This document shows positions 24,444 to 30,555 of a DNA stretch of 64,000 bases, piece after piece. Within the stretch, counting starts at the first letter, position 1. Every line of letters starts with the position of its first letter. The notes below the pieces were generated by a model, which was not told the origin of the DNA, ran no database searches, and saw nothing but the letters and a program-made list of their open reading frames with translations. Made by a program: the position numbers and the translations under genes. The DNA is from Deltaproteobacteria bacterium (GTDB lineage Bacteria; Desulfobacterota; DSM-4660; Desulfatiglandales; Desulfatiglandaceae). The stretch covers positions 124,001 through 188,000 of the forward strand of contig JAFDIV010000001.1 in assembly GCA_019307815.1 (NCBI GenBank), read 5' to 3'.

Positions 24444-25730
24444 TTACCGCTCCAGCAATTCGGAGCAAATTCGATTCCAGGTGATCCAGAATCCCGGGTA
24501 GGATTTGTTTACGCAAGATTGATTCTTGATTACCATGTCAGGAAGTTTTAGCCCTATTACTGCAAGGCTCATGGCGAGGCGGTGGTCGTCGTGTGGATCG
24601 GTAGCTTCAGGTTTCAAAGGATATCCACCATGTATCACGAGACCGTCTTCAAGTTCATCAACCCTTCCCCCCAAGAGTTTCCACTGGGTTGCAATGGTAT
24701 GCAAACGATCGCTTTCCTTGTGACGTAAATGGGCGACGTTTCGGATGGACGTCCTGCCTTCTGCAAAGAGGGAGACGGCCGCCAGCGTGGGCACCATGTC
24801 GGGCATCTGGCTCAAGTCCGCCTCTATGGCCCTGAGATGTGCACCCCGTACGGTTACCTGGTCTTTTTCCCTTTTTACTTGGCATCCCATTTCCTCCAGA
24901 AGATTAAGAAACCCGATATCCCCCTGCCTGGTGCTGTAAGGATATATGTTTTCGGTGATAACTTGGCCGCCTGTGACAGCGGCTGCGGCCCAAAAATAGG
25001 ATGCGGAAGAGACATCGCCCTCGATGGTAAGGTCCTGTCCAGTATACCTCTGGCCCGCTGGAATCCTGAAATATTTGTATCCCTTCCGCTCGACCGATAC
25101 ACCGAACCTCTCCATTACATCCAAGGTAAGGTCGATGTAGGGAAGAGAGACCCGATCCCCCGTCACCTCGATTTCCACGTCCCTTTGGGCATAGGGGGCA
25201 CACAATAGGATCGAGGAGACAAACTGGCTGCTTTGGGTGGCATCCACGGTGGCGCCTCCCCCGCTAATCCCTTCTCCCCGCACCAGAACAGGCGGAAAAC
25301 CGGGTTTTCCAAGAGATTGTGCGCTTACACCGAGTTGGGCCAAGGCTTTTATCAGGTCACTTATGGGCCGCTCGTTCAAACGGGGGCTGCCGGTGAGGAT
25401 AACATTTCCCCGTGCAAGTGCTGCAACGCTCAAAAGCAGTCGAAGGGAGGTGCCACTGTTACCTAGGTATATCTCCTCTTTGGCTGGTGGCACACAAAGA
25501 TCTCCTGCCGATCCTGTCACCTGAAGCCTTCCTTCACCAAAGGAGATATCCACTCCCAGCCGAGCCAGGGCTTCGGTTGTATAAATCGTGTCATCACACC
25601 GGAGGAAATTCCTAATATGGCTTTCTCCCTTTCCAAGGGCTGCAGCTATTGCAGCCCTGTGGCTTATGCTTTTGGATCCTGGGATCCTGATCCTTGCATT
25701 GACCTTTTCTGTTGATTTTAGTTCCTTCAT
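24444..25730 (-). CDS. aroA: 3-phosphoshikimate 1-carboxyvinyltransferase
   Basis: IRIPGSKSISHRAAIAAALG; LGNSGTSLRLL; DMVPTLAAVSLFAEG; HKESDRL; DPHDDHRLAMS; start ATG 25730. Confidence 0.94.
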   Translation of the reverse strand: MKELKSTEKVNARIRIPGSKSISHRAAIAAALGKGESHIRNFLRCDDTIYTTEALARLGVDISFGEGRLQVTGSAGDLCVPPAKEEIYLGNSGTSLRLLLSVAALARGNVILTGSPRLNERPISDLIKALAQLGVSAQSLGKPGFPPVLVRGEGISGGGATVDATQSSQFVSSILLCAPYAQRDVEIEVTGDRVSLPYIDLTLDVMERFGVSVERKGYKYFRIPAGQRYTGQDLTIEGDVSSASYFWAAAAVTGGQVITENIYPYSTRQGDIGFLNLLEEMGCQVKREKDQVTVRGAHLRAIEADLSQMPDMVPTLAAVSLFAEGRTSIRNVAHLRHKESDRLHTIATQWKLLGGRVDELEDGLVIHGGYPLKPEATDPHDDHRLAMSLAVIGLKLPDMVIKNQSCVNKSYPGFWITWNRICSELLER

Positions 25731-25935
25731 TAAGGTATTCCTTGGTTCAGGTTGAACCGAGGTGTCGTTCTTTGTATATCCTAACCTAGAAACCACGTTT
25801 TGGGGACTTTTATTATTTCACCCAATCAATGTGGTTTTGGGCAAAAGGTGGGCCAGAACATAAGGCCCGATCCCCTTTCCTTGTATCGGCCCATGGTACT
25901 TCTTGTGATGTCATAGCAAGTGGGGACATATGAAA

Positions 25936-26928
25936 TTATTTTTCAGTAATTGTTTCATGGACCTTGTAACCAAAATGTCTTCCTTCCTTCTCCACATATC
26001 CCAACACCGTGTTCCCGGCCTTAAGATGGACTACTGAAACTGGATTTCCCTGTGGTGCAACCAGTCGGATGGTCTCGGCATTCTGAACGATTGTACTCAC
26101 AGGCCCATTTGGCCCCGTGGCCTGGATCAGAAGAAGGGGCCTTCTCTCAATCTTCACCCTTCCCACCAAGATCGGGGTGGACTTCCCCTTTGCATTGACC
26201 CCCATAACAAGGTCACCGGCCTTGAGCTCGCACAAGTACCTGGTCTTACCTCCTGGTACCATCACATAGGCATGGACCGGGCCCGCATTAACCCTGAAGG
26301 GTCGGGGGGAAACATAGGGATTTTCCACGCTCTCGCAGTGGATGAGAAACAATCCCTGGCTGCTGTTTCCCACAAGCAGGCCATCACCTTCTTTCATCAT
26401 GGTGCAGGTGTCCACACAAACCCTGTCACCCATTGCGGCAGGGACAACCGATTCAATGGTAAATTCTACAAGGTGCAGGGACTCGTGGCCGGATTTGATC
26501 TTGCCAATAATTTCTTTGACCTTGGCAGGGTTTCTGTCTTCGATAATAATGCCTGCCACCCCCTTTTCCAGGATGCCCAGTGCCGTGTTTGCCTCTTGAG
26601 CGCTGGTTATGGTCACAAAGATATTGTCAGATCGGGCAACCAGATTCTCAAGCGGTATAATGGTCCAGTCCGTGGTGTCCACCACCACCTTTTTGTTGCG
26701 GCTGAGGCAGGCGATTTTTTTCTCGTCTTCGCGGGAGCGGATCTGTGCCCGAACCACATCCTTTTCCCATTTGAGGTCTCCGGCCTTGGCCACCGTAGTG
26801 ATAATCCCCAGCTCCTTGGCTGCCTTTACCTTGTCATCGGGTACGATCACCGCATCTGCCCCTGCCTCGAGGGCGGCTGTCACCAGCTCCTTCTGCCAAG
26901 GATCGGCCTTGACCCAAATCTCCTTCAT
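25936..26928 (-). CDS. 3-dehydroquinate synthase II (archaeal-type AroB')
   Basis: MKEIWVKADPWQKELVTAALEAGADAVIVP...VVVDTTDWTIIPLENLVA...VAGIIIEDRNP...GMGVNAKGKS-like motifs; start ATG 26928. Confidence 0.9.
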   Translation of the reverse strand: MKEIWVKADPWQKELVTAALEAGADAVIVPDDKVKAAKELGIITTVAKAGDLKWEKDVVRAQIRSREDEKKIACLSRNKKVVVDTTDWTIIPLENLVARSDNIFVTITSAQEANTALGILEKGVAGIIIEDRNPAKVKEIIGKIKSGHESLHLVEFTIESVVPAAMGDRVCVDTCTMMKEGDGLLVGNSSQGLFLIHCESVENPYVSPRPFRVNAGPVHAYVMVPGGKTRYLCELKAGDLVMGVNAKGKSTPILVGRVKIERRPLLLIQATGPNGPVSTIVQNAETIRLVAPQGNPVSVVHLKAGNTVLGYVEKEGRHFGYKVHETITEK

Positions 26929-27730
26929 GGTTGCCTTCCTCCTCGGTGAAATACTTCCTGAGGGATAGAAACAGTTCCTCAAAGGCCTTTCTTTGTTTCG
27001 TATTGATTATGTCTGCTAGCTGCTCGCATGTTTTTGTGTAGGACTCGATGAACTGGCTTGAAAATGGATTATCCATCAGCAAAGAGGCAAAAAGATCAAG
27101 TGGTTGACCCAGCATGAATCTGATCCTATCTATCGACTGCCTAAAGACATAGGTGGAATACGCCAAGATGTCCTCCAATCTGTAATTGGAGTCCATGATA
27201 CACGTGGCAAGGACAAGCATGGCAAAATGGTGTGCTCCCTGGATAAGACCCATCAGATGGTCATGGAGCAAAGGATTGAGCATAATGGGTCTTAGGCCGC
27301 TGGCCTTGAGTATTCCGAGGGTCCATCGAAGGCCCTCTTCGCCCCGTCCAGGACAAACCGCTATTGACATAGGGCCCTGAGCTGCTCCATGTTCATGGTT
27401 CGGGCCAAAAAGCGGGTGAAGACCTACCACCTGGGAGTTTGAGCATTTGAGCATGACGGAGAGGGGTAGTGTCTTGATGGATGTTAGATCAACGAGAAGG
27501 CCCTCTTTTGGCACCAAAGGGGCAATCTCCCGTATCACATTCTCTGTATCAGTTATAGGCACCGAGATAACAATCACATCGCACATGGAGACCATCTCTT
27601 TGGGCCTGAGCCTGGTGGACCTACTAGAGCGCATCACCTCCAGGCCAAGATCTTCCAATAGTCTCGCAAACCACGAGCCCATCCTCCCTGTGCCCCCAAC
27701 TATTCCCACCTTCGGCCTGTCTAGTCCCAC
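26834..27730 (-). CDS. tyrA: prephenate dehydrogenase
   Basis: VGIVGGTGRMGSWFARLLEDLGLEV; VVGLHPLFGPNHEHGAAQG; 95 bp 3' overlap with the next gene. Confidence 0.88.
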   Translation of the reverse strand: MGLDRPKVGIVGGTGRMGSWFARLLEDLGLEVMRSSRSTRLRPKEMVSMCDVIVISVPITDTENVIREIAPLVPKEGLLVDLTSIKTLPLSVMLKCSNSQVVGLHPLFGPNHEHGAAQGPMSIAVCPGRGEEGLRWTLGILKASGLRPIMLNPLLHDHLMGLIQGAHHFAMLVLATCIMDSNYRLEDILAYSTYVFRQSIDRIRFMLGQPLDLFASLLMDNPFSSQFIESYTKTCEQLADIINTKQRKAFEELFLSLRKYFTEEEGNHEGDLGQGRSLAEGAGDSRPRGRGRCGDRTR

Positions 27731-28830
27731 GGCTCACCTCCTGCTGGATAGGATCCAAGGTGCTTGAAAAAACAGCACACCTCTTTCATTTCCTTTAAGG
27801 CGCGATCCACATGGGTGTCCTGTTTGTGGCCTTGCATATCCACAAAAAAGAGGTATTCCCATTTTCTTGTGCGTGCAGGCCTCGATTCTATTTTGGTCAT
27901 ATTGATGTTATGCCTAGCCAGTGGTTCAATGGCCCTGTAAAGGCTACCCGGCCTGTGGTGAAGAGAAAATAAAACAGATGTCTTGTTGTTCTCGGAGCGC
28001 TTGGGCTCTCCTTTCCCTATAATGAGGAACCGGGTGACATTGTGGGATGTATCTTCAATGCCTTTTTCCAAAATGGACAGGTTATAGATTTGGGCGGCCA
28101 GCTCGCTTGCAATGGCTGCGGCATCCTCTTTTTCAGCCGCCTTTTGGGCTGCCTCAGATGTGCTTCCTGTCTCCATGATCTTTACCTGGGGCATATTTTC
28201 CTTGATCCACATACGGCACTGGGACAGGGCCATGGGGTGGGAGTAGAGGTATTTGAGGGCTTTTTTATCCCTTTGATTACCTAACAAGTTATGCCTTATC
28301 CGGAGGAAGATCTCACCCTGGACCCTTAAATCATACTCACAAAACAGGTCAAGGGTGTCTCCTACAGTGCCATGGTAGGAGTTTTCAACCGGAACCACCC
28401 CCATGGTGCACAGGTCCTTTTCCACCAGTGAAAAGACATCTTCGATACTTACACCTGGGCACAACTCATGGGCCTGGCCAAGGAACCTAACTCCGGCCTG
28501 ATGGCAAAAACTCCCTTCAGGGCCCAGGTATGCCACCCGGAAGGCCTGCTGCACAGAGCGGCTAGCTGAGATGATTTCCGTAAAGATTGCCCTTATGGCC
28601 TGAGGGGTCAAAAGGCCCCTGCCATGTGCCATGAGCTTACCCATGACCTCCTGCTCTCGGCCGGGGTCAGTGGTGTCCAAGCCCAAAGCTTTTTTGTGTT
28701 TTCCTATTTTCCAAGCAAGTTCCTGTCTTGCTACAAGGAGGGAGAGGATCTTGTTATCGATGCTGTCGATCCGGCCCCTGAGGTTTTCAAGCTGCCACAC
28801 GTTCCTCGCGCCATGTGTGGTTTGTTTCAT
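27721..28830 (-). CDS. pheA: bifunctional chorismate mutase / prephenate dehydratase
   Basis: [98 protein letters not shown]. Confidence 0.93.
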
Positions 28831-29638
28831 TTGTTCCTCCGCCGTTATGGTGCAAGAACTCCAGGGCCTTTTCCACACTTGCCCCCTGGTGGACTATCAT
28901 GGCAAGGGCCGCCACCATCCTGGTGGGATTAGGGTGTTGAAACACGTTCCTACCAATGGATGTACCTGCGGCCCCTGCCTCCATGGCGCCCTTGACCATC
29001 TCAAGCACTGCCCGGTCCGACTCCATCTTGGGCCCTCCTGCAATGATTACAGGCACGTGACATCCTTCTACCACCTCCCTGAAGGTCTCTGGACCTCCTG
29101 TGTAGGAGACCTTCACCACATCAGCTCCAAGCTCTGCCCCTAGGCGGGCTGCATGTTTGATGGCCTCCGGGTCATATTCGTCCCTGATCTTCTCACCCCT
29201 GGGATAGATCATGGCAAGGAGTGGTATGCCCCATTCAGAGGCCCTCTCAGCTATCCGACCCAGATCGGCCAGCATGTCTTTTTCCCTTCCGCTGCCGATA
29301 TTTACATGGACAGATACCCCGTCTGCCCCCAGCTTGATGGCCTCTTCCACGCTGCACACAAGCGTCTTGGCATTGGGCTCAGGGGAAAGGGATGTGCTCC
29401 CCGAAAGATGAATAATTAGCCCCATATCAGAGCCACTTTTCCTGTGGCCCCTTGCCACAAGCCCCTTGTGGACCACAATTGCATTGGCCCCTCCATCTGC
29501 TACCTGCGCCATGGCCTTTTTTATGTCCGAAATTCCCCTAATGGGGCCGGCACTCACACCGTGGTCCATAGGAACGATGACCGTTTTTCCCGTATTCCGG
29601 TCAATGATCCTTGCTAGTCGGATTTCCTTTCCTATCAT
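28787..29638 (-). CDS. 2-amino-3,7-dideoxy-D-threo-hept-6-ulosonate synthase (class I aldolase-like, archaeal-type AroA')
   Basis: [25 protein letters not shown]...[34 protein letters not shown]...[17 protein letters not shown]. Confidence 0.88.
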
Positions 29639-29718: not shown

Positions 29719-29922
29719 CTAGGCTTTTCGCCCTGTTTTACCGGGCTGCCTCTTTCCAAAGGAGATAGCTGTTATGGACGAAAAAAGCCACGGGCTGTAT
29801 GGTTCCACCCGTGGCTTTTTTGCAACACCTTGCCCAAGTGCCACGGGTGGACCCCTCCAATAATGAAACCAAAACTGGTTCATATGAAAGGCATGTTTTT
29901 GGTTCGTATAAATGCTAACCAT
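29719..29922 (-). promoter_or_regulatory. second aro attenuator: aromatic-rich leader ORF and terminator/antiterminator hairpins
   Basis: ORF MVSIYTNQKHAFHMNQFWFHYWRGPPVALG... with AAGGGG SD. TCCACCCGTGGC and GCCACGGGTGGA, on opposite sides, are 12/12 complementary (+ strand arms 29840-29851 and 29804-29815). Terminator AAAAAAGCCACGGG...CCCGTGGCTTTTTT (29781-29821). Confidence 0.7.
29781..29821 (-). terminator. intrinsic terminator of second aro attenuator
   Basis: AAAAAAGCCACGGG-loop-CCCGTGGCTTTTTT. Confidence 0.85.
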
Positions 29923-29986
29923 GGAATCAATTCCCCTTTGTACTTGTGCCGATATTTCTTCTTATTGATTACATTCCCCGTAAAAC

Positions 29987-30022
29987 AAAAAAGCCGTGAG
30001 CTTTTGGTCTGCCCACGGCTTT
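29987..30022 (-). terminator. intrinsic terminator of first aro attenuator
   Basis: minus strand AAAGCCGTGGGCAGACCAAAAGCTCACGGCTTTTTTG, 9-bp stem (one GU) plus U tract. Confidence 0.85.
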
Positions 30023-30042
30023 AAAAAAAATGAAATAGACCA

Positions 30043-30114
30043 TCAGTCCATGGGCAGACCTCCGCATCCCCAAAAATAAAAGTTCCAGCCTTCCCATGAA
30101 CGATTGATGATCAT
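30043..30114 (-). CDS. aromatic amino acid leader peptide MIINRSWEGWNFYFWGCGGLPMD
   Basis: 24-codon ORF with W, W, F, Y, F, W codons. Its last codons GGT CTG CCC ATG G form the arm (30048-30060) complementary to 30006-30018 (12 of 13 plus one GU). Stop TGA directly after the arm. Confidence 0.78.
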   Translation of the reverse strand: MIINRSWEGWNFYFWGCGGLPMD

Positions 30115-30178: not shown

Positions 30179-30184
30179 TGTCAA
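30179..30184 (-). promoter_or_regulatory. candidate -35 box (TTGACA) for the aro operon
   Basis: minus strand ctcTTGACAaacagctaaggaggttttTAATTAttt; weak -10. Confidence 0.4.
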
Positions 30185-30337: not shown

Positions 30338-30442
30338 ATGGAATTCAGAAGCCAGAAGTCAGAATGGAATAGAGATATGGTTATTGGCTCATCAATTTGC
30401 CTGTGGTGGTGGCGCCTCCAAACAGAGGTGATCCCACCATAG
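30338..30442 (+). CDS. trp leader peptide with WWW run
   Basis: MEFRSQKSEWNRDMVIGSSICLWWWRLQTEVIPP* (TGG TGG TGG at 30404-30412); stop overlaps attenuator region. Confidence 0.8.
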   Translation: MEFRSQKSEWNRDMVIGSSICLWWWRLQTEVIPP

Positions 30443-30460: not shown

Positions 30461-30502
30461 AAAAACCGTGGGGTCACCTCCGGATGGCCCCGCGGTTTTT
30501 TT
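30461..30502 (+). terminator. trp attenuator terminator hairpin
   Basis: AAAAACCGTGGGG tcacctccggatgg CCCCGCGGTTTTTTT. Arm GGGGTCACCTC (30470-30480) can alternatively pair with GAGGTGATCCC (30425-30435) in the leader. Confidence 0.85.
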
Positions 30503-30515
30503 GTCTGTGTTTGTT

Positions 30516-30555
30516 AGAAAAGGCCGTGGGGCTTAAGGACCTCACGGCCTTTTCT
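30516..30555 (+). terminator. second hairpin between trp attenuator and trpE
   Basis: AGAAAAGGCCGTG...CACGGCCTTTTCT inverted repeat (13-nt arms) just upstream of the trpE SD. Confidence 0.65.

Follow-up and report, generated by a model that had tools for sequence, protein, structure and literature searches.

Features of the locus

The window, that is, the whole 64,000-nt stretch of DNA that was analysed, carries on its minus strand an operon headed by ADH synthase. NCBIfam models identified ADH synthase, DHQ synthase II, EPSP synthase and genes of the Phe/Tyr branch, bearing out the archaeal-type aro operon that an earlier sequence-only reading of the window had placed here:

28787..29638, minus strand: ADH synthase (2-amino-3,7-dideoxy-D-threo-hept-6-ulosonate synthase), leading gene (TIGR01949 equivalog, 378.9 bits, cut-off 299)
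27721..28878, minus strand: chorismate mutase-prephenate dehydratase (NCBIfam)
26834..27730, minus strand: prephenate dehydrogenase (under the curated cut-offs, best 170.7 bits)
25936..26982, minus strand: 3-dehydroquinate synthase II (NF002627, 477 bits)
24444..25796, minus strand: EPSP synthase aroA (TIGR01356, 440.7 bits)

The aroK-aroC genes of the source genome lie 89 kb from this operon, and no leader was found upstream of them.

A 23-aa leader with W7, W10 and an F/Y/W cluster had been proposed ahead of the operon, and it is present base for base at 30114-30043 of the minus strand. This ORF and the elements around it are referred to as module 1:

30043..30114, minus strand: leader ORF MIINRSWEGWNFYFWGCGGLPMD, closed by a stop codon (23 aa; W7, W10, F12, Y13, F14, W15)
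30086..30112, minus strand: segment 1, predicted to form a protector/pause hairpin with 30060-30038 (-28.9 kcal/mol, z = -2.95)
30048..30060, minus strand: arm A (segment 2), GGTCTGCCCATGG, the final leader codons
30006..30018, minus strand: arm B (segment 3), CCGTGGGCAGACC, partner of arm A (antiterminator) or of arm C (terminator)
29982..30022, minus strand: intrinsic terminator, B:C hairpin and T6 (-19.0 kcal/mol)
29992-29987, minus strand: T6 of this terminator, whose letters run GCCGTGGGC...GCTCACGGC-T6
30179..30184, minus strand: candidate -35 hexamer TTGACA, proposed from sequence only, with a weak TTAATT (30161-30156) after 17 nt, and not among the results of the promoter scan

The pairing of arm A with arm B (30060-30048 with 30018-30006) was confirmed as 13 positions, 12 of them Watson-Crick and one G-U, with an energy of -26.2 kcal/mol, and none of 3000 dinucleotide-shuffled versions of the leader gave a duplex as strong. 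The terminator that takes arm B as its 5' arm was likewise recovered; its stem has nine GC-rich pairs, or 12 in the fold when the A/T flanks are counted, and is followed by T6. Folding of the 151-nt leader, which had been suggested as a check, gave z = -4.07, with none of 200 shuffles equally stable. The default fold is predicted to be protector plus terminator, and when the leader is folded alone, the loop formed by segment 1 holds most of the aromatic codons. The module had been described as a three-segment attenuator; arms A, B and C stand, but the folding model adds a fourth segment, so that module 1 is modelled as a four-segment design (1:2, 2:3 and 3:4) in which segment 1 would sequester arm A.

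Only one attenuator had been proposed before the aro operon. That attenuator is there, but a second complete module (leader ...NQFWFHYWRGPPVA...) lies ca. 190 nt downstream, ahead of the same operon, at 29922-29781 of the minus strand:

29719..29922, minus strand: module 2 leader ORF, beginning MVSIYTNQKHAFHMNQFWFHYWRGPPVA (F17 W18 F19 H20 Y21 W22)
29840..29853, minus strand: module 2 arm A (pairing with arm B matched by 0 of 3000 shuffles)
29801..29815, minus strand: module 2 arm B, which pairs with arm A
29781..29821, minus strand: module 2 intrinsic terminator, B:C hairpin and T6 (-23.6 kcal/mol)

As in module 1, the shuffles were dinucleotide shuffles of the module's own leader, and the A:B duplex was stronger than in all 3000. 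The default fold predicted for module 2 is the antiterminator, and a 1:2 pause/protector hairpin does not appear in its predicted minimum-energy fold. Because the modules differ in default fold, they may respond differently to absent leader translation. They also differ in the stop codon, which had been said to follow arm A directly: this holds for module 1, where the stop comes after the codon cluster and before the terminator, but not for module 2, whose first in-frame stop (29721-29719) is past the terminator, the ORF running through its own terminator. A stop ahead of the terminator is present in nearly all relatives, and in most it stands shortly behind arm A. Its loss from module 2 may mean that this module is degraded or leaky; ribosomes would not be released close to arm A, and basal read-through may be altered.

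A third leader is found on the opposite strand, in front of trpE:

30338..30442, plus strand: divergent trp leader ORF MEFRSQKSEWNRDMVIGSSICLWWWRLQTEVIPP, closed by a stop codon (Trp-only control)
30425-30437, plus strand: trp arm A, pairing with arm B at 30468-30480
30461..30503, plus strand: trp attenuator terminator (z = -4.60)
30518..30555, plus strand: second terminator hairpin, directly before trpE (-23.8 kcal/mol)

This leader ends in CLWWWRLQTEVIPP, a Trp cluster (WWW, TGG codons), and has the same arms-and-terminator design. Since it shares the architecture but uses Trp codons only, the leader codons match the pathway products, and the three leaders fit their operons: W for trp, and F/Y/W for the common/Phe/Tyr operon.

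Chance controls in the source genome

Contigs of the same genome totalling 404 kb (808 kb counting both strands) were searched for ORFs with at least five aromatic residues in eight codons followed by a terminator. Only eight such combinations were found, among which the two modules of the window ranked first and second and had the strongest antiterminators. The third combination (G000 C1:292223-292104, minus strand, equal to L188:12104-12223), whose leader ends in GREYGFFYFYGLLCPWPGGG and which is also matched by the covariance model described below, is a further copy of the aromatic attenuator in this genome. It precedes a gene for a 637-aa acetyl-CoA hydrolase/transferase, and may connect acid activation with the metabolism of aromatic amino acids. 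When the window was searched against Rfam, no family, T-box included, reached its gathering score over the leaders (a tmRNA was found elsewhere only), and relaxed thresholds yielded only sub-threshold chance matches, the best of them to unrelated families. A scan with promoter and terminator consensus sequences was uninformative for the aro leaders because their loops are longer than the scan allows.

Conservation across Desulfobacterota

Regions upstream of ADH synthase were gathered phylum-wide and modules were detected in them automatically, giving 77 modules. At least 18 of the 29 sampled Desulfobacterota families carry an aromatic leader with A/B/C arms before ADH synthase, and presence is near-complete in many families (f13, f55, f44, f46, f14, f24, f54 and f42). 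Scanning of the upstream regions did not detect the element in families f34, f72 and f37, which have ADH synthase, and the Hydrogenobacter, Odinarchaeia and Halobacteriales loci likewise yielded no clear module ahead of that gene. All 77 leaders contain both F and Y, and 57 of them also W. Aromatic codons number 508 in the leader frame vs 130 and 136 in the other two frames; within the aromatic cluster, C makes up 19.5% of the letters at codon position 3 vs ca. 3% at positions 1 and 2; and the distance from the cluster to the stop is near-constant (median 33 nt). In some clades (rows L082/L086 of alignment A1, see below), arm A has shifted to a different frame and the aromatic frame has been retained. 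Judged by these patterns, the aromatic cluster behaves as coding sequence.

Pairing was evaluated in A1, an alignment of 37 modules. The antiterminator A:B forms in 83.8% of its cells and in at most 43.3% when slid; for the terminator B:C the values are 95.3% and at most 55.7%. Cells changed on both sides number 16 in the antiterminator and 41 in the terminator, with compensatory pairs such as 56:122, UA to CG in eight sequences, and 117:139, UA to CG in ten. Since kinship among the sequences inflates shuffle counts, the covariation is judged mainly by the slide control together with the compensatory pairs. About 16% of the antiterminator cells are non-standard pairs, and part of the A:B covariation could be explained by arm C constraining arm B. 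The mean A:B pairing is -27.3 kcal/mol within a locus vs -20.1 kcal/mol with arms swapped between loci. Conservation of the aromatic codons and of the pairing arms, on which the sequence-only reading had staked its case, is thus observed in relatives, and both helices covary. The region appears to combine the features by which an attenuator is recognised: a cluster of end-product codons, a terminator before the first gene and a covarying, mutually exclusive antiterminator.

Regulon of the element and probable origin of the tandem

A covariance model, R1, was built solely from modules upstream of ADH synthase, and gave 71 matches in 38 of 47 genomes of the family. The gene context was inspected in 20 regions. 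In 11 of these, the module precedes shikimate kinase, with chorismate synthase next if the contig extends that far, and in six of the 11 a second module stands ca. 1.7-2.7 kb further on, before ADH synthase. DAHP synthase takes the place of ADH synthase behind the second module in genomes without ADH synthase. Further contexts of R1 matches are an aminotransferase, an MBL-fold protein (ca. 860 aa) or an AroG-type DAHP synthase behind the module. In four loci (L255, L256, L260 and L261), the protein behind the attenuator is 857-867 aa long, with an N-terminal MBL-fold domain. A class I/II-type aminotransferase follows the attenuator in L253 and L264, and that of L253 stands behind a tandem pair of leaders, YLFFIYYFWGYPYPRP and YYFAYYFWGYYYIHGPE.

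The aroK leaders of relatives share the pattern (S/P)W(Q)..FYF...(P/S)M(D/C), which module 1 of the window matches in the form SWxxxxFYF...PM(D/C), while RGPPV is common to many ADH-synthase leaders of relatives and occurs likewise in module 2. By these motifs, module 1 is assigned to the aroK-type leaders and module 2 to the RGPP-type ADH-synthase leaders. Many relatives carry aroK-aroC between the two leaders; in the source genome these genes are now far away, which would account for the tandem. The simplest history would be that the genes between two leaders left, the leaders thereby becoming adjacent, with gene relocation as the presumed step. Tandem pairs are also found in L013/L058/L059 and in L253, and the similar tandems of L013/L058/L059 indicate that the arrangement is not unique to the source genome.

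Proposed mechanism and alternative explanations

The ADH-synthase-led operon is very probably controlled by two transcription attenuators arranged in series, both of the classical leader-peptide (ribosome-mediated) kind. The sequences, pairings, conservation, covariation and gene contexts are as observed above; from here on, we infer transcription, translation, stalling and the identity of the signal. The signal would be how much Phe-, Tyr- and Trp-tRNA is available in charged form. If any of the three were short, a ribosome would stall at the F/Y/W cluster and leave arm A free to pair with arm B, forming the antiterminator, and RNA polymerase would enter the operon. If all three were plentiful, the ribosome would continue and cover arm A, B:C would form, and transcription would end at the T tract. 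Should module 1 go untranslated, segment 1 would fold onto arm A, and the lack of translation would also lead to termination.

The alternative most deserving of attention, though doubtful, is that only one of the two modules works, module 1 being a relic after the departure of aroK-aroC or module 2 decaying after the loss of its stop. The aroK-type leader of module 1, whose genes are elsewhere, and the position of the module 2 stop past its terminator both speak for this; against it, the arms, terminators and F/Y/W clusters remain near-perfect in both modules, the two take ranks 1 and 2 within the 404 kb, and tandem pairs recur in L013/L058/L059 and L253. We consider it unlikely that a single attenuator was duplicated to give the tandem, instead of the intervening genes having been lost. 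Tandem pairs elsewhere, for example that before the aminotransferase in L253, would agree with duplication, but relatives have two distinct types of leader on either side of aroK-aroC (SW..FYF..PMD and RGPPV), and the window has one of each, so that its leaders do not look like sister copies.

Two further explanations would replace leader translation altogether. Codons for F, Y and W are T-rich, so that any U-rich tract yields aromatic residues in some frame, and the leader could be an untranslated RNA element that is U-rich and conserved, such as a protein-binding site, beside an ordinary conditional terminator. This is very improbable, as the aromatic codons are confined mostly to one frame (508 vs 130 and 136), C is tolerated at third codon positions only, the near-constant spacing to the stop is kept, the aromatic frame stays when arm A shifts frame in L082/L086, and the adjacent trp leader uses TGG codons in the same architecture. 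Control by a protein- or tRNA-sensing switch (T-box, TRAP-like) is the least credible of all: T-box operons can have leaders with several terminators, but no Rfam family, T-box among them, reaches its gathering score here.

Such control would give a regulatory logic to the 'archaeal-type' (ADH synthase/DHQ synthase II) aromatic entry in sulfate reducers and their relatives, in which the cell probably makes the pathway only when end products run short. Leaders for all three products on the common pathway and a Trp-only leader on the trp branch stand side by side within less than 800 bases, and the tandem pair offers a natural experiment in serial attenuation. A phylum-wide regulon is defined, together with a searchable RNA model, and it points to further genes of aromatic metabolism, namely the aminotransferase, the ca. 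860-aa MBL-fold protein and the acyl-CoA hydrolase/transferase.

Aromatic leader ORFs in Archaeoglobi

An Archaeoglobus ADH-synthase match (L028) with an aromatic ORF upstream was the starting point for an analysis of Archaeoglobi loci (L028/L140, L146-L174 and L210-L214), in which leaders were sought within ca. 260 nt upstream of ADH-synthase paralog 1. An aromatic ORF (at least four aromatic residues in eight) was present in 35 of 35 loci, and 33 of the 35 had at least five. Five or more were seen in 1 of 15 loci of the other Archaeoglobi paralog, which like paralog 1 scores as ADH synthase, and in 0 of 20 among the remaining archaea of the phylum. Examples of these leaders are MHNVAKVEKVYGFYFGFSFGYWFSF and MPKLLKGKAVYELFWFGFWFSYQ, each closed by a stop codon. 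A TATA-like box lies ca. 28-31 nt before the leader ATG in most loci, the distance expected for a leaderless mRNA. Folding revealed neither a bacterial-type hairpin terminator nor a fold common to all of these leaders. It is likely that in Archaeoglobi an aromatic leader peptide controls the ADH-synthase gene, the leaderless mRNA starting at a 20-30-codon ORF rich in F/W/Y. If so, this would be archaeal leader-peptide control by a non-bacterial mechanism (U-tract termination or translational coupling), a question that these leaders make directly testable.

Other features were noted at archaeal loci. In L161, L165, L170, L171 and L174, a second Shine-Dalgarno-like site (GGGAGGTG/GGGGTG) lies between the leader and ADH synthase, followed by a further small ORF ahead of the RBS of the gene, often with cysteine codons (e.g. 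MAPCLCMGLCSKN...). In L163, L164, L166 and L168, the leader coding sequence opens with GGCTCTCxCCC, which can pair with the middle of the same sequence (GGGAGAGCC or similar) and so make a strong hairpin ahead of the aromatic codons. Palindrome-like stretches such as GTGCTACTATGTCACATAGTAACAC and TTGCCACTTTGAAACTCAATAGC, perhaps an operator for a repressor, recur around the TATA box of the ADH-synthase genes at the archaeal loci L195-L209 and L266-L285.

Comparison with known systems

The sequence-only reading knew of no attenuator described for an archaeal-type aro operon. This needs correction, as a putative attenuator was tabulated in 2005 ahead of the Desulfovibrio vulgaris operon aroA'>aroB'>aroQ-pheA>aroF>tyrA>[trp operon], drawn from Merino's web database (PMC1173090, Table 7). 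That entry resembles the present case in that phylum and leading gene of the operon agree and an attenuator is predicted ahead of it, but as tabulated it comes without a leader peptide, amino-acid signal, conservation, regulon or tandem (PMC1173090, Table 7). Apart from it, no described aromatic leader peptide of Desulfobacterota or archaea was found in the open-access papers searched. The kind of attenuator is known; within the literature searched, leaders that mix F, Y and W codons, a regulon of this kind spanning the phylum and the tandem arrangement appear to be undescribed. The Rfam trpB motif RF04312, a cis-regulatory RNA, matches module 1 only weakly (24.8 bits, far under its gathering score of 59), and module 1 is not a member of that family.

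In the classical gamma-proteobacterial trp and phe attenuators (trpL, pheL and pheST), a short leader ORF with the regulated codons is combined with protector, antiterminator and terminator arms and a T tract. The modules described here share all of these elements, but mix codons of three aromatic amino acids, stand before an ADH-synthase/common-pathway operon and occur as two in series. The leader peptides of ilvGMEDA and ilvB are multi-amino-acid attenuators, and a single leader is predicted here, too, to sense several end products of a branched pathway; theirs are the branched-chain amino acids, without a tandem, whereas here the products are aromatic and the leaders are arranged in tandem.
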